Origin: Guptibacillus hwajinpoensis
GTDB lineage: Bacteria > Bacillota > Bacilli > Bacillales > Guptibacillaceae
Direction: 5' to 3'
Assembly: GCF_001039475.1 (NCBI RefSeq)
Contig: NZ_LELK01000004.1
Location: forward strand, 648,981-712,980
Length of the DNA: 64,000 nucleotides
Of the stretch, positions 18,148 to 33,547 are shown piece by piece; the stretch's first letter is position 1; each line of letters opens with the position of its first letter. Made by a program: the position numbers and the translations under genes. A model generated the notes under the pieces. It saw only the letters and a list, made by a program, of their open reading frames with translations, did not search any database and was not told the origin of the DNA.

Positions 18148-18285
18148 TTAATAGGTCATTTGAGTGAGGAATGCAATAACTGCTCCAATCATAATTGCTG
18201 TAACAGGTAAAAGAAGATAAATCATCTTCTCTTTGCGTTCTCTTTTATATTGAATTTCTTCTGGTGTTAACCATGAACCTTTCAT
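18148..18285 (-). CDS. 45-residue single-pass membrane protein under a c-di-GMP riboswitch
   Basis: The protein starts MKGSWLTPEEIQYKRERKEK and continues with one hydrophobic segment of about 20 residues ending FLTQMTY. GGGGGA lies 7 bp before the ATG. It is a paralogue of the 45-residue protein at 23061-23198: both share W-x-T-P-E-E-I-Q, a basic R/K-x-R-K-E-K-M stretch and one membrane helix at the same position. The conserved polar N-terminus probably faces the cytoplasm. Function is unknown; control by c-di-GMP suggests a link to motility, adhesion or surface change. Confidence 0.8.
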   Translation of the reverse strand: MKGSWLTPEEIQYKRERKEKMIYLLLPVTAIMIGAVIAFLTQMTY

Positions 18286-18402: not shown

Positions 18403-18519
18403 ATTTTGCCATTCTCGTACGATTTGCATAGTAGTTGTTTTAGAATAAAGGTCATCAATAAGTAGAAATTGTCGAAAAATGACTTCTTTTATTAGTATAG
18501 CGTATTTTTGTGGGGGTGT

Positions 18520-18585
18520 ATATTGGGAAAATGCATTTAATATGATTTGTAATATTAAGGTTTTGTAAACAATGTTTCCCAATAT
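18520..18585. promoter_or_regulatory. Paired inverted octamers upstream of hutU (putative shared operator)
   Basis: ATATTGGGAAA (18520-18530) and TTTCCCAATAT (18575-18585) are a perfect 11-bp inverted repeat 29 bp before hutU. The inner octamers TTGGGAAA and TTTCCCAA start exactly 52 bp apart, the same distance as in the pair upstream of the NprR-like gene (31178 and 31230). The intervening DNA is AT-rich and not conserved. Confidence 0.6.
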
Positions 18586-18613: not shown

Positions 18614-20281
18614 ATGTCTGATCTTTATGAGCGATATGTAGTGAATCATCCATATACTGGTGTGGATCTTCATACAAAAGGATGGGAGCAAGAAGCTGCA
18701 CTGCGCATGTTATTAAATAACCTTCATGAGAATGTTGCAGAACGACCAGAGGATCTTGTTGTCTACGGAGGAATAGGGAAAGCTGCTCGTAATTGGCAAG
18801 CGTTTGAGAACATCGTTCAATCTCTGAAAAGACTTGAATCAAACGAAACGCTACTCATTCAATCAGGGAAACCTGTAGCCATTTTTCGTACACACTCACA
18901 GGCTCCGAGAGTACTGATAGCGAATTCCAATCTTGTACCTTCACGTGCAACTTGGGACCATTTTCACGAATTAGATCGCAAAGGTCTCATGATGTACGGG
19001 CAAATGACGGCAGGAAGCTGGATCTATATCGGGAGTCAAGGTATCGTGCAAGGAACGTACGAAACGTTTGCAGAATGTGCTAGACAGCATTTCAGTGGGA
19101 CACTGAAAGGTACGCTTACAGTAACTTCTGGACTTGGTGGCATGGGTGGGGCGCAACCATTAGCGGTTTCTCTGAACGAAGGGGTTAGCCTTTGTATTGA
19201 AGCCGATCCACAACGGATTCAAAAAAGAATTGAGACTCACTATCTTGATCGAATGATTGAAGATATAGATGAGGCGATACGGGAAGTAAATGAGGCGAAA
19301 TTGGCTGGGATTCCTTTATCAATTGGCGTTCCTGGTAATGCAGCAGATTTGCTTCCGGAACTACTGAGAAAAGGTGTCGTACCTGACATCGTAACCGATC
19401 AAACGTCTGCTCACGATCCACTTAACGGGTATATTCCATCAGGTTTTACAGTGGAAGAAGCAGAGCGTTTAAGAAGCGTTTCACCAGATGAATATTGTAA
19501 ACGTTCAACGGAGAGCATGGCGATTCATGTAAAGACAATGCTTGAGATGCAGGATAAAGGCTCAATCGCTTTTGATTACGGAAATAATATTCGCCAAGTT
19601 GCGTATGATCAAGGCGTTATGAACGCTTTTTCAATAAAAGGTTTTGTACCTGAATACATTCGACCGCAGTTTTGTGAAGGCAAAGGACCATTCCGCTGGG
19701 TCGCGCTTTCTGGTGACGAAGAAGATATTCGGAAAATTGATGAGCGAATGCTGAAGGAATTTAAAGATAATAAGCATCTCTGTCATTGGATTAAGATGGC
19801 GCAGAATAAAATTGCATTTCAAGGACTTCCAGCTAGAATCTGCTGGCTTGGCTATGGAGAACGAGCTAGATTTGGAACGATTATTAACGAGATGGTTGCT
19901 TCAGGAGAATTAGCAGCTCCAATCGTCATTGGTCGTGATCACCTCGATGCTGGATCAGTAGCATCACCAAACCGAGAAACAGAAAATATGCTTGATGGAA
20001 GCGATGCGATAGCCGACTGGCCTATCTTAAACGCACTCGTTAATGCAGTAGGTGGTGCTAGCTGGATCTCATTTCATCATGGAGGTGGAGTTGGGATGGG
20101 ATACTCGCTACATGCGGGTATGGTCATTGTAGCGGATGGGACGAAGTCTGCAGAAGAGAGGTTAAGTCGAGTATTAACGACAGATCCCGGAATGGGTGTC
20201 GTCCGACATGCGGATGCTGGCTATCCAACAGCAATTAAGTTTGCCCGTGACAATGGGATTGATATGCCATCGCTTGATTAG
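18614..20281 (+). CDS. hutU: Urocanate hydratase (urocanase)
   Basis: This 555-residue protein has all urocanase landmarks: [30 protein letters not shown] (NAD site), [29 protein letters not shown] and [18 protein letters not shown]. It converts urocanate to imidazolonepropionate in histidine breakdown, with bound NAD+. It heads a hutU-hutI-hutG operon. Neither hutH (histidase) nor the antiterminator gene hutP lies next to it, unlike the B. subtilis hutPHUIGM order, so urocanate formation must be encoded elsewhere. Upstream is the paired-octamer site. Confidence 0.97.
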
Positions 20282-20293
20282 GGAGGGAGTCAC

Positions 20294-21565
20294 ATGAAAC
20301 CAATTTTCCTACAAAATGCGAGTGAGTTGATTACCCTTAAAGGACTTTCTAATGCTCCTTTAGTTAAACCAGTTGAATCTGATCTATCGATTATTCAAAA
20401 CGGGAGTGTTCTGATTGATAATGGAACAATTCTAGCGGTCGGCCAAACAACTGAATTGAAAGAAATGTATCCCGAAAAGACGAGTGCAGCAGATGTAATT
20501 GACGCAAGCGGATCGCTCGTAACACCAGGGTTCGTCGAACCTCATACGCATCTTGTGTTCGCTGGCTCTAGGGAAAAGGAATTTGTGATGAGGTTAAAAG
20601 GTGCTTCGTACATGGACATCATGAACGCTGGTGGAGGAATCTATGCGACGACTGAGCAGACAAGGCTAGCTAGTCATCAACAATTATATACTCAAAGCTT
20701 TGAGCGTCTTGATCGGTTAATGAAACAGGGTGTAACGACGGTCGAGGCTAAAAGTGGTTATGGGCTAGATCTTGAAAATGAGAAAAAGCAGCTTGAAGTG
20801 GCTCGGGAATTAAATCAAAAACACGCTCTAGATCTTGTTAGTACATTTATGGGAGCCCATGCTGTTCCATCCTTTTACAAACAAAATCCAGATGAGTTTA
20901 TTGCTTATTTAATAAACGACGTATTGCCGGTCATTGCAAAGGAAGGGTTAGCTGAATTCAACGATGTTTTTTGTGAGAACGGCGTCTTTACAGTTGAACA
21001 ATCACGACGTGTGTTAGAAGCTGGAAAACGACTTGGTCTCTCTCCCAAAATTCATGCGGATGAGTTGGAGTCATATGGTGGAGCGGAGCTTGCGGCAGAG
21101 CTCGAAGCTGTTTCTGCCGATCATTTATTGTGCGCTTCTGATAAAGGAATCGATCAAATGGCTGCGGCGGGAGTAGTAGCTGTTTTACTTCCTGGGACAG
21201 CCTTCTTTCTACAGAAAAAGATGGCGAATGCGAGGAAAATGATTGATCGCGGTGTACCTTTAGCTCTTTCAACTGACTGTAACCCTGGTTCCTCACCAAC
21301 CGTTTCAACAGCTCTCATGATGAATTTTGGTTGTTTGCAAATGGGAATGACGCCTGCTGAAGTTCTTGTAGCAGTAACCATTAATGCTGCACATGCGATT
21401 AATAGAGGAAGTCTAATTGGAAGTATTGAGGTAGGGAAAAAAGCAGATCTTCTTCTATTTTCGGTCCCAACTCATCATCATCTTCATTATCATTTTGGAG
21501 AAAATCATGTAAAAAGTGTTATTAAGAATGGAGTCGTACGAGTTAAAGAAGGGATGTTGATATGA
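20294..21565 (+). CDS. hutI: Imidazolonepropionase
   Basis: This 423-residue amidohydrolase has the metal motif EPHTHLVFAGSREKEF, FMGAHAVPSFYKQNPDEF, the KIHADELESYGGAELAAEL segment and STDCNPGSSP. It hydrolyses imidazolone-5-propionate to N-formimidoyl-L-glutamate, the third step of histidine breakdown. It begins 12 bp after hutU with GGGAGGGAG upstream and shares an ATGA overlap with hutG. Confidence 0.97.
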   Translation: MKPIFLQNASELITLKGLSNAPLVKPVESDLSIIQNGSVLIDNGTILAVGQTTELKEMYPEKTSAADVIDASGSLVTPGFVEPHTHLVFAGSREKEFVMRLKGASYMDIMNAGGGIYATTEQTRLASHQQLYTQSFERLDRLMKQGVTTVEAKSGYGLDLENEKKQLEVARELNQKHALDLVSTFMGAHAVPSFYKQNPDEFIAYLINDVLPVIAKEGLAEFNDVFCENGVFTVEQSRRVLEAGKRLGLSPKIHADELESYGGAELAAELEAVSADHLLCASDKGIDQMAAAGVVAVLLPGTAFFLQKKMANARKMIDRGVPLALSTDCNPGSSPTVSTALMMNFGCLQMGMTPAEVLVAVTINAAHAINRGSLIGSIEVGKKADLLLFSVPTHHHLHYHFGENHVKSVIKNGVVRVKEGMLI

Positions 21566-22560
21566 GTCAGTATCCTTATCCAATGCTGGATCGACCGTTT
21601 GCTGTTTTTCGAAAAAATGATAAAAAAAAGGAAAAGACGGTGAATGAGTGGATTCAAACGTTACCAATGTCAGGTTACGATAACTTGGAGAACTTTGATG
21701 TTGTTCATCTTGGGATACCACTTTCACGTTCATCAATCAGTGCCTCTGCAGCCAGCGAAGCTCCTAACGCACTGAGAAACGCATGGAAATATTTCTCCAC
21801 CTATCAGATTGAAACGAATATTGACCTAGCTGATATGCAAATCGTTGATTTAGGTGATGTAAAACAGTCCATTACCGATATAGCACAATCTCACCGCTCC
21901 ATTAGTGAAGCGATGTATGAAATGAGAACCAACCATCCGAAGGCATTACCTGTATGCATTGGTGGGGATCATTCTATTACAGCACGTCTAATTGAGGGAT
22001 GGAAACGAGCCCATCCAAAGAAGACGATCGGAATTTTGCAATTTGATACGCACTTTGATTTGCGACCGCTTGATCAGGGACCTTCGAATGGCACACCGAT
22101 GCGTTTTTTAATTGAAGAAGGAATTGTAGACGGAAAACACATTCATACTCTTGGTCTACACGGGTTTTTCAATAGTCGGTCACTGAAAGAGTATGCTGAT
22201 TCAGCTGGTGTTACGTATCGCACGATGAACGAAATGCGAAGAAATGGCATTTCAAGAACGGTGAAAGAATCGCTCGAAGTGCTAAGTCAGAACGTTGATG
22301 CTATTTATATAACGGTAGATATGGATGTACTGGATACGGCATATGCGCCTGGTGCTCCAGCGTCAACACCAGGTGGAATGAGGACAGACGAGCTCTTTGA
22401 GGCTGTATTTCTTGCAGGTCAAGCACCCAAAACTTCCGCAATGGATCTTGTATGTCTTGATCCGCGATTAGATGTGAGGGAAGCAACTGTAAAAGCAGGT
22501 GTACACGTGATGCTTTGTTTTCTTACAGGATATTGGGATCGAAAGAGAAGAGGACGATAG
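21562..22560 (+). CDS. hutG: Formimidoylglutamase
   Basis: This 332-residue protein belongs to the ureohydrolase (arginase/agmatinase) fold. The manganese-binding motifs are GGDHSITA, FDTHFDLRP and VDMDVLDTAYAPG. It cleaves formimidoylglutamate to glutamate and formamide. Its ATG overlaps the hutI stop, so it is translationally coupled. An inverted repeat closes the operon. Confidence 0.95.
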   Translation: MSQYPYPMLDRPFAVFRKNDKKKEKTVNEWIQTLPMSGYDNLENFDVVHLGIPLSRSSISASAASEAPNALRNAWKYFSTYQIETNIDLADMQIVDLGDVKQSITDIAQSHRSISEAMYEMRTNHPKALPVCIGGDHSITARLIEGWKRAHPKKTIGILQFDTHFDLRPLDQGPSNGTPMRFLIEEGIVDGKHIHTLGLHGFFNSRSLKEYADSAGVTYRTMNEMRRNGISRTVKESLEVLSQNVDAIYITVDMDVLDTAYAPGAPASTPGGMRTDELFEAVFLAGQAPKTSAMDLVCLDPRLDVREATVKAGVHVMLCFLTGYWDRKRRGR

Positions 22561-28604: not shown

Positions 28605-29362
28605 AGTAATTCTTTTGTTCCTTCTGAGTAAGGAGAAGAACTTGCTTCTGTTGCAATATTTTCTTCTGTAGGAGTTTCACCTTCGCCAACCCAGTGAAAT
28701 GTGATATTAGAAAGTCCATGCTCTCTTGCTGTGACCGCCATCACTAGATCGCCGCTACTATCACCGAAAACATATACTTCTTCTGGTGTAGATATCTCCT
28801 CCAGAATCCACTTCGCACCAATTTTCTTAGATAAGTCTGGATGAATAACGTCTACACCGTATGTAGAAACGACGGTTTTGTTACCAGAATTCGTTGAAAT
28901 AGATTCAACATCATCTGCGTAGTCGCGAAGGGCTTCGCGAGTTTTGTTTAAGTGCTCTTTGTCACCGGGATCGCCATGAACAGCTTCCACCGTACCCATC
29001 GATTCCTTCGTTTGATCCCATTGAATCAACCCGCTATAGTCGTCTTTTTGACTTACCTCATATAATTGTTCTTTAACCTCATCAGAAACGACATACTCGT
29101 TATCAAGGTTCCATGAAGAGATATCCGTGCCGCGTCCTTTAATAGCACCGTGTTCAGATACGCAATAAAGTGAAGACCAATCCAAGTCGCTTCTGAAAAG
29201 AGGAAATAAATTGTCCCCAAGCCATCCTCTTGAACGTCCTGTGACAAATGAAATAACATGTCCATCTTCCGCTAGTTTCTCAATCATGTTCACCGCATCT
29301 TGATCAGGTCTAGCATTCTCATCCGTAAGAACACCGTCAACATCAAACATATAAAATGCCAT
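28583..29362 (-). CDS. HAD-superfamily hydrolase (Cof-like, type IIB)
   Basis: This 259-residue protein has HAD motif I (YMFDVDGVLTDE), motif II (ISFVTGRSRGW), a conserved Lys region (HPDLSKKIGAKWI) and motif III/IV (YVFGDSSGDLVMAV). The insert between motifs II and III is of the IIB cap type, as in sugar-phosphate phosphatases. The substrate is unknown. AGGAGCG precedes the ATG. It is convergent with the oxidoreductase gene. Confidence 0.85.
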   Translation of the reverse strand: MAFYMFDVDGVLTDENARPDQDAVNMIEKLAEDGHVISFVTGRSRGWLGDNLFPLFRSDLDWSSLYCVSEHGAIKGRGTDISSWNLDNEYVVSDEVKEQLYEVSQKDDYSGLIQWDQTKESMGTVEAVHGDPGDKEHLNKTREALRDYADDVESISTNSGNKTVVSTYGVDVIHPDLSKKIGAKWILEEISTPEEVYVFGDSSGDLVMAVTAREHGLSNITFHWVGEGETPTEENIATEASSSPYSEGTKELLKKHIGS

Positions 29363-29388
29363 TTTAGCACGCTCCTGTCTTAGTGGTA

Positions 29389-29606
29389 GGCTCTTTTCGT
29401 ATACAGTCTATAAGAGTGGGGTAATTTCCGCTTCAGGTGCTCGCTTTCCGCGGGGCGGGACACTTGAGCCTCCTCGTCGCTAACGCTCCTGCGGGGTCTC
29501 ACCTGTCTCGCTAGTCCCGCATGAGTCGAGCACCTTCCTCTCCAATTTGCTAAGTGTGGTTTTTATATTAAATTCTTTCAAAAGCAATAATCTTTGGAAA
29601 AGAGCC
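29389..29606 (+). repeat. MITE-like GC-rich repeat, copy D (full length)
   Basis: The ends are GGCTCTTTTC and GAAAAGAGCC, a perfect 10-bp terminal inverted repeat. The core is as in copy C with small changes. It lies between the HAD gene start and the pheromone gene terminator. Confidence 0.88.
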
Positions 29607-29654
29607 TAGTAGTATGACCGTATTATAGCGTTATAGGGGAAACGAGGGCAAATA

Positions 29655-29681
29655 AAAACCCGGCGCACCGCGCCAGGTTTG
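29655..29681 (-). terminator. Terminator of the regulator-peptide operon
   Basis: On the minus strand ACCTGGCGC-GGT-GCGCCGGGT is followed by TTTTATTT, 6 bp after the peptide gene stop. Confidence 0.88.
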
Positions 29682-29686
29682 GATTA

Positions 29687-29824
29687 TTAGATGTGAACTT
29701 CAGTTTTAGCAGGGCTTGAATCAGGTACCTTATCGTGAGAATCAGGTACTTTGTCATGATTTGGTACAATAACCATTCCTACAACACCAGTAACTAATAA
29801 CATGTTAACAAGAAACTTTTTCAT
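29687..29824 (-). CDS. Phr/NprX-like signalling peptide precursor with duplicated heptapeptide
   Basis: The 45-residue precursor starts MKKFLVNMLLVTGVVGMVIV, a basic N-terminus plus hydrophobic export signal. Its hydrophilic tail contains HDKVPDS twice in direct tandem. The two DNA units differ at four third-codon positions and at no amino acid, so the heptapeptide is under selection. It begins 15 bp after the regulator gene stop with AAAGGAAG upstream, and both share one terminator. Size, layout and position match precursors of RRNPP pheromones such as NprX. The mature peptide is probably 5-8 residues around DKVPDS; the exact ends are not known. Confidence 0.85.
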   Translation of the reverse strand: MKKFLVNMLLVTGVVGMVIVPNHDKVPDSHDKVPDSSPAKTEVHI

Positions 29825-29839
29825 AGATTTTCTTCCTTT

Positions 29840-31102
29840 CTAATTCATAATTTTTTTTCTAGCATCATTTGCTAGTTTAAAGTAAAAGCTGGAGTTTTTA
29901 TATTGACTACTATTAAAATAGTAATCAGCCAGCATTTCCCCATATTCAGATACGTAATTCCAGTAATTTTTATTCTCGAAGTAATCAACAGCATCTCTCA
30001 AAGAGGATTCAGTATGCTCATCCTCTGAATTGGAGAGCTTTAACTCTAACACGTTATAGTGATAGATGTACTCCAAGAACTCTGTTTTCTTTACAATCCT
30101 CATACCTTCTTCAATCCAATATTTAGCGAGCTCCAAATCATTGATTTTCAGATATTCAGACGCTATAAGATAAACAGTTTTTGCACGATCTTCTATTTCG
30201 TGGTCTTCATTGTTTTGGAGACCAGATTGATAGTAATCCAATGCAATCTCAGATTCATTCTGACAAGAATAGACATACCCTAAATCATGGTAAATAATGC
30301 TTTTGAGGCGCTTATCGTTAAAGGATTCAGCATACTTTAATGCATTTTGAAAATGATGCTCTGCTTCACCGTAATTTAAAATAACTCTGTTATTGACTCC
30401 TAAAAGGATTTCAGTATCAGCAGCTCTCTTGAAGTTATACTCTTTATTAAATAAGTCCAAACATTTTGTAGCAAGGTTATTGGATAGTGTGATCTGACTA
30501 AGTCGATTGTGCACTAAAGCCTGTTGATAATAGAATTCAGCCCATTCTGCATTGTTTGACTTCATCGAAGTTAATAGTTTATTAGCTTTTTTATACTTTT
30601 CTCCAGCTTCACGAAATTTCCGGTTTTGATAGTAATACAAACCAAGAAAATAAAAATAGAAGTATTCAAGATCTTCAGATAGTCTTTCCTGCACATGATA
30701 AAGTCTTTCTAAAATATCATTGGCCTTATCCGTTTCCCTGAAGAGAATATGATATCTGAAAGTTAGAAGTAGATACTTTGTTAGCATATCAGGATCTTCT
30801 ACACCTTCAATCTCTTCTTCAATACGCTTTTTGAAGCTTGTGACTTCATCAAAATTACGTAGACGCATTTCTTTGTACCACGCATCGAGATCATTATGAA
30901 GCCTTTTCATTTTATCCTCATCATCCACTTGATCGAGAGACACGCCTAACTCATTACACAAGTGTTCGACAAGTTCTTCACTCGGCTGGGCAAGTCCGTG
31001 TTCGATTTTGCTTAAATATGGAATAGAACAGATCCCGGAAGCAAGTTGTTCTTGGGTGATGCCTTTCATTTGTCTAAAGTAACGAATTTTTGCCCCTATC
31101 AT
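29840..31102 (-). CDS. NprR-like RRNPP regulator: HTH plus TPR domain
   Basis: This 420-residue protein has an N-terminal XRE-type helix-turn-helix (about residues 1-62; KGITQEQLASGICSIPYLSKIEHG) followed by an all-helical TPR region to the C-terminus (for example YFLGLYYYQNRKFREAGEKY and IIYHDLGYVYSCQNESEIAL). Size and order match NprR and related quorum-sensing regulators that bind an imported oligopeptide in the TPR groove. I place the start at the ATG after GGAGAAAGGGAG; the frame stays open upstream to 31240, but that stretch contains the promoter and paired octamers. The signal peptide gene follows directly. Targets are inferred only. Confidence 0.88.
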   Translation of the reverse strand: MIGAKIRYFRQMKGITQEQLASGICSIPYLSKIEHGLAQPSEELVEHLCNELGVSLDQVDDEDKMKRLHNDLDAWYKEMRLRNFDEVTSFKKRIEEEIEGVEDPDMLTKYLLLTFRYHILFRETDKANDILERLYHVQERLSEDLEYFYFYFLGLYYYQNRKFREAGEKYKKANKLLTSMKSNNAEWAEFYYQQALVHNRLSQITLSNNLATKCLDLFNKEYNFKRAADTEILLGVNNRVILNYGEAEHHFQNALKYAESFNDKRLKSIIYHDLGYVYSCQNESEIALDYYQSGLQNNEDHEIEDRAKTVYLIASEYLKINDLELAKYWIEEGMRIVKKTEFLEYIYHYNVLELKLSNSEDEHTESSLRDAVDYFENKNYWNYVSEYGEMLADYYFNSSQYKNSSFYFKLANDARKKIMN

Positions 31103-31132
31103 TCTTTGCTCCCTTTCTCCTAGAACTATTTG

Positions 31133-31161
31133 ATTATAGTTTACTAAAAATTCACAGAAAA
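31133..31161 (-). promoter_or_regulatory. Putative promoter of the NprR-like gene
   Basis: On the minus strand a perfect TATAAT (31133-31138) lies 17 bp from a weak -35 box TTTTCT. Transcription would begin about 25 bp before the ATG. A weak -35 suggests dependence on an activator, fitting the paired octamers just upstream. Confidence 0.55.
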
Positions 31162-31176
31162 GAGAATAGTTTTGTG

Positions 31177-31238
31177 GTTGGGAAATATACATCGATTTTT
31201 GGTGTTTTATGGCCCTTTTTCGAGATGTGTTTCCCAAC
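31177..31238. promoter_or_regulatory. Paired inverted octamers upstream of the NprR-like gene
   Basis: GTTGGGAAA (31177-31185) and TTTCCCAAC (31230-31238) are a perfect 9-bp inverted repeat; TTGGGAAA and TTTCCCAA start 52 bp apart, as upstream of hutU. The site is upstream of the -35 box, where an activator would bind. Five helical turns of separation would place both halves on one face of the DNA. Confidence 0.62.
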
Positions 31239-31554
31239 ATGCCTTTGTCGACCTCATCTTAAATGAGATTTGAATTACTCACTAGACAAGTTTTGTACGG
31301 TCTTTTGCAGGTTATACGCTAGAAAAGCGCTTTCCTGCTCAAAGGTAATCTTTATAAATGAATAAAGTAAACAAGATGTCCCTTCTTTTATATCATGGAT
31401 TCCAGACAACTACAAATAATCAAAAAAATACTAGAAAGAGTAGAGAGAAGGGAAGAGTCGCTGACATGATCATAGTAGGTCGATGAGAAAATTGCCGCTT
31501 CTTGTCGAAAGTATACTGTAAGAGGGTCTGGAATTTGTAGGAAAGACTTTTCTG

Positions 31555-32212: not shown

Positions 32213-33547
32213 TTAATAATCAAGAGAAGGCCAAATAGTTGAGACTTTTTCGTTTAATGCAGCCGAAATCTTTCTGGCTGTTTCGATATTAGGCTTCTTT
32301 ACTTTTCCTGTTCTAAGGTTTGAAATTGTCGCTTGAGTAAGATTTGTTATTGTAGCAAGTTCCGTCGTGTTGATATCCATTTCAGCCATTAGAAGTCTTA
32401 AGTTTTTCCCAGGGTCTCTAGGGTATTGTTCTTCGTTATAGAGGTATTTCATCCTCATTGATTGGTAATCAACAATAGAAACGATTACCTTATTGTGATT
32501 TAAAGTAAGAAGTTGTGTAGTAATCTCGACAGGGAGTTTCTCTCCATGTTTAGTTATATGGACGGATTTAAATGAGATGCTCTCATTTTTCCGGAATCGT
32601 TTAACGTGCTTGTATAGGATTTGATGTAAATCTGGTGGATGAAGATTAATGTACGACATTTCGAGAAGTTCATCTTTCGTATAGCCAAGTATTTCACACG
32701 CCATTTTATTCACTTCAATAAAACGACAAGTTGGGCCATTGGGGTTAAATTCACTTATAAATATACCTGAATGAAACGTGTTTAAAAGCATTCGAAAATT
32801 CTCTTTTGCTTTAAGGAGTTCATTTTTTAGATATCTTCGTTCCGTAATGTCTTTCGCAATTCCATAAACGCCACTGATTCTCTCTTCTTCTATTATAGGA
32901 ATGCAAGTTACTTTAAGATCAATGGTTTTGCCATGCTTATGAAAGATTTGAATGACGGAAGTAACTTGATCATCGCTATCCTGAATTATTTCATTGAATT
33001 TCTCAATTGCTGCTTCTCTAAGTGGTTTACTAAGCAAATCAAATAAACGTAAACTTGCTAGTTCCTCTTTACTGTATCCTGAAATCTGACTACAGGCGTT
33101 ATTTACAGAAGTGAATCTACCCTCGAGGTCTAGTGAAAACATTGCATCCGGATTCTTTTCAAACAGTAAATTGCATTTGCTTTTAAGATGATCAATCGAA
33201 GTGTTTTTTCCTGATATTAAACATTTTCCATCAGCCGTTTTGAACTGATTGACCAGAACAAGGGGTTCGTCGATTTCATTCCCATTCATTAAGGGCACTG
33301 CACTAGCTGTAATGATGATCCATTCTCCGGACCTCCTTTTATATCGGAATTTAATGGTATGGCATTCCTTTGCTTCGATTGTTTTGATAAGAGCTAGTTC
33401 GATTTTAGGAATGTCATCAGGATGAACTAAATGAAAGACGGAGGGACTCTTAAATAGTTTATGCTCTGGACCTAGAGTCTTTTGAATTAAATAAGAAACA
33501 AATTTTAATTTTCCCGTCTTACTTACAGCGACTGCTAGCTCTTCCAT
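32213..33547 (-). CDS. Triple-PAS sensor with C-terminal XRE DNA-binding domain
   Basis: This 444-residue protein has three PAS/PAC units: about residues 10-105 (HPDDIPKIE and FRYKRRSGEW), about 125-240 (LFEKNPDAMFSLDLEGRFTS, GVYGIAKDITERR) and about 245-365 (FHSGIFISEFN, NKMACEILGYTKDELLEMS). The C-terminal 65 residues are an XRE helix-turn-helix (ELATITNLTQATISNLRTG). There is no kinase, cyclase or sigma-54 domain, so it looks like a one-component sensor-regulator, an unusual order. No membrane segment is seen. AGGTGG precedes the ATG. It is divergent from the leader and AbrB-type genes. Confidence 0.85.
   Translation of the reverse strand: MEELAVAVSKTGKLKFVSYLIQKTLGPEHKLFKSPSVFHLVHPDDIPKIELALIKTIEAKECHTIKFRYKRRSGEWIIITASAVPLMNGNEIDEPLVLVNQFKTADGKCLISGKNTSIDHLKSKCNLLFEKNPDAMFSLDLEGRFTSVNNACSQISGYSKEELASLRLFDLLSKPLREAAIEKFNEIIQDSDDQVTSVIQIFHKHGKTIDLKVTCIPIIEEERISGVYGIAKDITERRYLKNELLKAKENFRMLLNTFHSGIFISEFNPNGPTCRFIEVNKMACEILGYTKDELLEMSYINLHPPDLHQILYKHVKRFRKNESISFKSVHITKHGEKLPVEITTQLLTLNHNKVIVSIVDYQSMRMKYLYNEEQYPRDPGKNLRLLMAEMDINTTELATITNLTQATISNLRTGKVKKPNIETARKISAALNEKVSTIWPSLDY

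Follow-up and report, generated by a model that had tools for sequence, protein, structure and literature searches.

The NprR-NprX pair of the Bacillus cereus group is the closest described counterpart of the system considered here, a gene pair for a putative peptide receptor and its propeptide in a 64,000-nucleotide stretch of Guptibacillus hwajinpoensis DNA (contig NZ_LELK01000004.1, positions 648,981 to 712,980), referred to below as the window. According to passages of the published accounts, NprR-NprX switches on NprA and other degradative enzymes (PMC4873490), and NprR with bound peptide forms a tetramer that is proposed to hold two DNA sites (PMC4970707). Of the other known receptors, PlcR represents a clan with five tetratricopeptide repeats (TPRs), and AimR another clan with nine TPRs (passages of PMC12700828). 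Tandem pheromone copies are known in phage Phr, where WprA, Bpr, and NprE carry out their maturation (passages of PMC11343458). Atypically long propeptides of the NprR subfamily had repeats in 17 of 17 cases, with up to six copies (passages of PMC9765709). RRNPP_detector yielded 21 candidate subfamilies, and the window pair may be in its supplementary tables (passages of PMC10075063).

A first-pass annotation of the window had proposed that a gene for a 420-amino-acid (aa) protein with a helix-turn-helix (HTH) and TPRs is followed, after a 15-nucleotide (nt) gap, by a 45-codon open reading frame (ORF) with an export-like start. This layout was exact. The ORF product is MKKFLVNMLLVTGVVGMVIVPNHDKVPDSHDKVPDSSPAKTEVHI, which includes HDKVPDSHDKVPDS, and its repeated heptapeptide HDKVPDS is, as had been claimed, unlike the NprX peptide SKPDIVG. 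The further claim of an RRNPP-type layout agrees with the best profile match (NprR), the overlap of the structural model with apo-NprR, the conservation of the small ORF, and a predicted protease regulon. We consider it highly probable that the pair works in the manner of NprR-NprX, the peptide activating a regulator of secreted proteases, and that it uses a pheromone of its own. The sequence evidence for this comprises the gene pair and its conservation, selection on the repeats, the predicted fold, a DNA dyad, its spacing from promoters, and the neighboring genes.

The proposed mechanism has the following steps. The small ORF would be translated and its product exported, extracellular trimming of the propeptide would leave a peptide centered on HDKVPDS, and the mature peptide would be reimported via an oligopeptide permease. 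Seven SBP_bac_5 peptide-binding proteins are encoded in the genome. Peptide bound in the TPR pocket would convert the regulator to a DNA-binding activator, probably tetrameric, that holds both half-sites of the 60-bp dyad TTGGGAAA-N44-TTTCCCAA. With the near half-site just upstream of the place of the -35 element, 23 nt before the -10 box, RNA polymerase would be recruited to several kinds of gene: those of secreted proteases (M4 and S8), that of a beta-propeller-like protein, one with a cyclic di-GMP (c-di-GMP) riboswitch, and the pair itself.

The dyad is the predicted operator of this system. It lies 5' of the regulator gene and is exact in 13 of the 14 genomes of the genus set (the window's genus, taken as Pseudalkalibacillus, including the window's own genome), with one mismatch in the 14th. 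When the gap was left free between 38 and 60 nt, 75 dyads were found in the 14 genomes, 3 to 9 in each. The gap was N44 in 72 sites, N43 in two, and N51 in one, and the control, a reversed pattern, gave none. Across the order, evenly sampled at 397 genomes and searched with gaps of 30 to 58 nt, dyads were present in 111 genomes; reversed-pattern counts were 0 or 1, but 2 in genomes G049 and G260. Relatives of the regulator (E<=1e-30) were present in 61 of the 64 genomes with at least two dyads, versus 193 of 397 overall (Fisher p=2e-18, from counts taken by hand and without correction for relatedness). Six genomes from outside the genus had gaps of N44 or N45 at most sites and of N43 or N46 at a few.

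The dyad also follows the sequence of the DNA-binding domain. Among named loci (the best 80 of 182 regulator relatives), a dyad lies within 250 nt of the regulator in 39, and the residues before the recognition helix read GICS in 38 of these and GLCS in one. Loci that read GI(I/V)S, GVIS, GLIS, or DIVS at this position have a dyad in 0 of 17 cases. These associations suggest that the regulator binds the dyad. The operator and the regulon go beyond the first-pass annotation, and one operator copy lies elsewhere in the same window.

Other searches for the site were less selective. With up to three mismatches, a scan of the window's own genome gave 45 sites versus 41 for the control, and only seven exact sites were used. 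A first half-site scan (TTTCCCAACCNNAAA, one mismatch) gave 8 forward and 8 reverse sites versus 2 and 8 for the control. An inverted repeat, AACTATT/AATAGTT, noticed by eye around the regulator's -10 box, was considered as the operator and set aside for the TTGGGAAA dyad.

Most of the genus sites examined lie at protease genes. The seven exact dyads of the window's own genome lie at the regulator, at the second site in the window, at three S8 subtilases, at one M4 thermolysin-like protease, and at a 314-aa protein that has no Pfam match. Of the 75 genus dyads, 39 were examined; the others comprise 13 upstream of the regulator, the second site in the window, the N51 site, and 21 that were not retrieved. 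The N51 site (locus L181) and a two-mismatch site (L179) were excluded from the count of 39 by a length rule. Many of the 39 are orthologous copies across different species. One member of each target family was assigned by Pfam and the rest by phmmer. By this assignment 25 of the 39 sites are at peptidase genes (12 M4 and 13 S8). The 314-aa protein accounts for seven more, the place of the riboswitch and hut genes for four, and the remaining three are at an OppB-like permease, an AimR-like gene, and a LysM protein. Outside the genus, 38 sites in six genomes were reduced to 31 by removing 7 that precede the regulator or a paralogue. Peptidase genes account for 11 of the 31 (seven S8, two M4, one M12B, and one C92), and the other targets include DJ-1/PfpI, FdhD, Rap-like, and unknown genes.

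The position of the dyad relative to the promoter was nearly fixed. The motif TAnnnT lies exactly 23 nt past the dyad in 6 of 6 targets in the window's own genome, while the other 49 offsets had 0 or 1 of 6. This spacing was first spotted by eye in the same six promoters. In the sites outside the genus, TAnnnT was found at 23 nt on at least one side in 23 of 31, versus 0 to 8 of 31 at other offsets. A -10 box at 23 nt puts the near half-site just upstream of the place of the -35 element, as would be expected for an activator. For the M4-gene test of the NprR subfamily, the dyad and the -10 geometry were found 5' of both M4 and S8 genes.

The second operator in the window lies between hutU and a c-di-GMP-I riboswitch. 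The hut operon was rejected as a clear target; no TAnnnT is present at 23 nt toward hutU, the -10 box at that distance faces the riboswitch instead, and the operator is kept in loci L194 and L204, which have no hutU within the stretch fetched. In L180, a gene that by eye resembles the window's ORF at 21562 to 22560 takes the place of hutU directly after the operator. The operator may still have some role for hut. At the riboswitch and the 45-aa ORF under this operator, quorum and c-di-GMP signaling might converge.

In 26 of the 80 named loci (L073 to L099 and L138, minus L079 and L096), the gene next to the regulator, on the opposite strand, encodes a homologue of the 314-aa protein. Its predicted model is all-beta (predicted local distance difference test score, pLDDT, 79.5) with the first 50 residues disordered, and we read it as a beta-propeller. 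This family of about 300 aa, all-beta in the model (e.g., L176:1086-2030 and L087:3882-4817), has no Pfam match above the cut-off, and it carries the operator in the window's genus, where it is unlinked from the regulator.

Several receptor-like genes were found near operator sites. An AimR-family receptor gene (L195:632-1834, genome G003; NCBIfam lysogeny_AimR, 339 bits) lies 83 nt downstream of a copy of this operator. Proteins of L265 and L273, in genomes G096 and G176, resemble the TPR part of the regulator and have an operator nearby; that of L273 is 366 aa long, with no HTH seen at its start.

The pair is conserved in the genus. The nearest named regulator is that of Bacillus sp. NTK071 (98%), and other nearest named records are from Pseudalkalibacillus hwajinpoensis, P. 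spartinae, P. caeni, and Alkalihalobacillus algicola. All 14 genus genomes have the regulator, with 59 to 98% identity outside the window's own genome. Residues 1 to 60 are 97 to 100% identical to those of the window regulator across the genus, and the remainder is 52 to 97% identical. The small ORF is present 13 to 18 nt 3' of the regulator in 14 of 14 genomes, so the concern that it might not be conserved in relatives is not borne out. In the wider set an export-like ORF, called by our own hydrophobicity rule, followed 59 of the 80 named relatives (versus 32 of 587 other ORF ends from the same loci, which served as controls); by the same rule, no such ORF is behind the other 21. Exact internal repeats of at least five residues occur at 27 of the 80 loci and in 0 of 587 controls. 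A core motif was found in 53 of 80 versus 3 of 587, a count that is not independent, since the motif came from these very data. The regulator had no match in a phage collection, and a plasmid search gave seven records with about 30% identity or less.

The proposed pheromone varies among relatives. Genus cores are HDKVPDS, HDRVPDS, HDRLPES, HEKFPES, or HEKFPQS, and one first copy is HDRFPDS. Wider-family cores have the form acidic-x-x-P, for example, HDDSPKIN, VDNSPGIK, TENNPGIR, YDENPP, FDELPKT, and IDNGPNPT; FDHTPGPK is present in nine copies in L085, as recounted in the sequence. In one locus (L017, G001), a 33%-identical paralogue precedes an 81-aa ORF that contains DELYPDP three times. The first-pass derivation of the pheromone from HDKVPDS holds in that this is a conserved unit and the most constrained part of the ORF. 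The tandem arrangement does not hold as a fixed feature; genus propeptides carry two copies in 8 genomes, one in 5, and three in 1. Thus, HDKVPDS is the conserved unit, and the ends of the mature peptide are not fixed by it.

The fold of the regulator resembles those of both NprR and Rap proteins. Pfam identified HTH_3 (1.1e-10), RapH_N, and TPR families; NCBIfam gave nothing above its cut-offs, and no AimR match was found in Pfam and NCBIfam up to an E value of 1. In a profile search NprR was best (4gpk, 6.1e-45), followed by 5dbk and then Rap proteins. The AlphaFold2 model (pLDDT 91.7) shows the HTH followed by 18 helices, which make nine pairs, versus the five TPRs of PlcR. In a Foldseek search with this model RapI was first by E value, and the best overlap among the matches listed was with apo-NprR (5dbk_B; template modeling score 0.89 by target, 2.8 Å). 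A FastTree phylogeny of the TPR parts, rooted on two Raps, joined the 80 loci and the window regulator (support, 0.91), with Bacillus thuringiensis NprR as sister (0.96); two inner nodes on the path to that grouping had support of 0.0.

Residues were mapped with the numbering and roles given in passages of PMC4970707, and 17 of 17 NprR letters were at the expected places. The tetramer residues Y223 and F225 of NprR are kept as Y222 and F224. W79 is also kept, and NprR R126 corresponds to R122. Changes from NprR include W167 to F163, H201 to R200, N306 to D305, and D309 to K308. With pocket positions differing from those of NprR in this alignment, it is plausible that the window pair forms a separate specificity group.

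A number of observations weigh against the interpretation of the pair as an NprR-NprX-type protease regulator acting through the dyad. The assignment of the regulator to the dyad rests on association, and no dyad precedes 41 of the 80 related regulators, 20 of which have the same recognition motif (the remaining 21 lack the full motif). Three of the 64 genomes with at least two dyads (G042, with three dyads, G054, and G277) have no regulator match at 1e-30. By our own assignment, 20 of the 31 sites outside the genus are away from peptidase genes, and 8 of the 31 have no TAnnnT at 23 nt. The -10 box of the regulator itself is 39 nt from the dyad, not 23. Only a single core copy is present in 5 of the 14 genus propeptides. 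Among five residues that contact the peptide in NprR, the window regulator retains R126 alone, which the wider family does not retain. The Spo0F-contact residues Y118 and E188 are not kept (T114 and W187). Spo0F contact is a second activity of NprR that is not needed for the regulator role.

The genomes with dyads and no regulator match, together with the different -10 distance before the RRNPP regulator, would fit a dyad that is the site of another protease regulator, with the RRNPP regulator merely one of its targets. This is unlikely, because the dyad tracks both the recognition helix (G(I/L)CS in 39 of 39) and the presence of the regulator (61 of 64), a bipartite 60-bp site suits the tetramer with two DNA sites proposed for NprR, and proteases are published NprR targets.

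It is also conceivable, if quite improbable, that the pair is real but that the mature signal is the C-terminal tail (the SPAKTEVHI region), with the repeats as a spacer. The tail is conserved in the closest species, with a ratio of nonsynonymous to synonymous change (pN/pS) of 0.25. However, the repeats were more constrained at 0.10 (signal part, 0.39; whole ORF, 0.25; values summed over pairs, which are not independent, from the eight genomes with 45-aa ORFs). These values indicate purifying selection on the small ORF, with the repeats as its most constrained part. Furthermore, relatives vary in repeat number and retain the core, whereas the tail is replaced by SSISNT in P. caeni and many Fictibacillus propeptides have variable terminal residues.

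A Rap-like regulator that has no DNA function and acts on Spo0F as a phosphatase, with the small ORF encoding a Phr-like inhibitor, could account for the RapH_N domain, for the single-sequence search that placed RapH first (4.6e-20) and NprR tenth (1.3e-13), and for two of the four Spo0F-contact residues, D107 and Y223, which are kept as D103 and Y222. The other two are lost, and the N-terminal HTH hardly varies within the genus and is associated with the dyad, which makes this explanation very improbable. That the small ORF is untranslated, or encodes an unrelated secreted peptide, is scarcely credible even though it has no Pfam or NCBIfam match, because its changes are biased to synonymous ones, it has a ribosome-binding sequence and a nearly fixed position in 14 of 14 genomes, and similar ORFs are found behind 59 of 80 related receptors.

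Table 1. Coordinates of the gene pair, the predicted operators, and associated features in the window
Feature	Position	Strand	Remarks
Regulator gene	29840..31102	minus	420 aa; HTH (about residues 1-60) and nine TPRs; from Pfam, profile search, and model
Propeptide gene	29687..29824	minus	45 aa; export-like N-terminus, two HDKVPDS copies, tail SPAKTEVHI
Intergenic gap	29825..29839	minus	15 nt; ribosome-binding sequence AAAGGAAG
Terminator-like hairpin and T-run	29656..29680	minus	Common to both genes
Operator (predicted)	31178..31237		TTGGGAAA-N44-TTTCCCAA, 5' of regulator
Candidate -10 box of regulator	31133..31138	minus	TATAAT; 39 nt from operator end
Second operator copy (predicted)	18523..18582		
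-10 box of second operator	18494..18499	minus	TATACT; 23 nt from second operator, directed at riboswitch
c-di-GMP-I riboswitch RF01051	18331..18420	minus	Predicted target; 74.3 bits
45-aa ORF	18148..18285	minus	MKGSWLTPEEIQ...; 3' of riboswitch, predicted target
hutU (urocanate hydratase)	18614..20281	plus	ATG 31 nt from other side of second operator

The regulator start at 31102 is an ATG preceded by GGAGAAAGG; a longer in-frame alternative begins with the ATG at 31240, and relatives share the 31102 start instead. The shared terminator of the first-pass annotation was confirmed in that a hairpin and T-run are present, but the hairpin alone is not beyond chance, because a terminator consensus scan of 29300 to 31500 gave 2 sites versus 1.1 expected. 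Its predicted stability is -18 kcal/mol (29640 to 29700; z, -2.2), with 8 of 200 shuffles equally or more stable, and a hairpin or GC-rich repeat is at the same position in the genus relatives compared. Near the pair, the gene at 32213 to 33547 (minus strand) encodes what by eye is a PAS-domain-like protein with an HTH-like C-terminal end.

The kind of system is known; the literature searched contained neither its pheromone nor its operator or regulon. Six core strings, including HDKVPDS and two others from the genus, had no occurrence there, and a text search with both half-site strings gave no relevant paper among the matches listed. No NprR operator is described in passages of PMC3325205, PMC4970707, PMC5641580, PMC7756075, and PMC4873490 or in literature listings. 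PMC9765709 mentions neither Pseudalkalibacillus, Fictibacillus, and Alkalihalobacillus nor the six core motifs, and an operator was not searched for there.

The wider value is in the operator and the protease regulon, which make the inference a precise prediction. Receptor, candidate pheromone, bipartite operator with fixed promoter geometry, and predicted protease regulon form one testable package in environmental bacteria and give an NprR-type receptor a concrete candidate DNA site. A series of natural variants of the pheromone, set against a DNA-binding domain that hardly changes, is suited to studying change in peptide specificity. The maturation of tandem Phr copies by WprA, Bpr, and NprE suggests a tentative extension, possible rather than probable, in which the peptide-bound regulator raises M4 and S8 proteases that cut more propeptide into active peptide, a positive feedback set off by cell density, with operator and core targets kept across several Bacillaceae genera as pheromone (one to nine core copies) and pocket diverge. 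If so, protease feedback would tie secreted public goods directly to signal production, and species would share one proteolysis program yet use private codes.

The layout is that of PlcR-PapR and AimR-AimP. Rap-Phr shares the nine-TPR fold and a propeptide beside the receptor, but Rap proteins have no HTH, in contrast to the window regulator with its HTH and predicted DNA site. NprR-NprX shares a receptor with HTH and nine TPRs, an adjoining small exported propeptide, the tetramer residues, a central Pro-Asp in the peptide (SKPDIVG versus HDKVPDS), and, as predicted for the window pair, targets that include an M4 protease (NprA) besides other degradative enzymes. The window pair differs from NprR-NprX in its peptide and pocket positions, in the absence of two of four Spo0F residues, in a TPR part only 21 to 23% identical to that of solved NprR, and in belonging to a clade that is the sister of B. 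thuringiensis NprR in the Rap-rooted tree.
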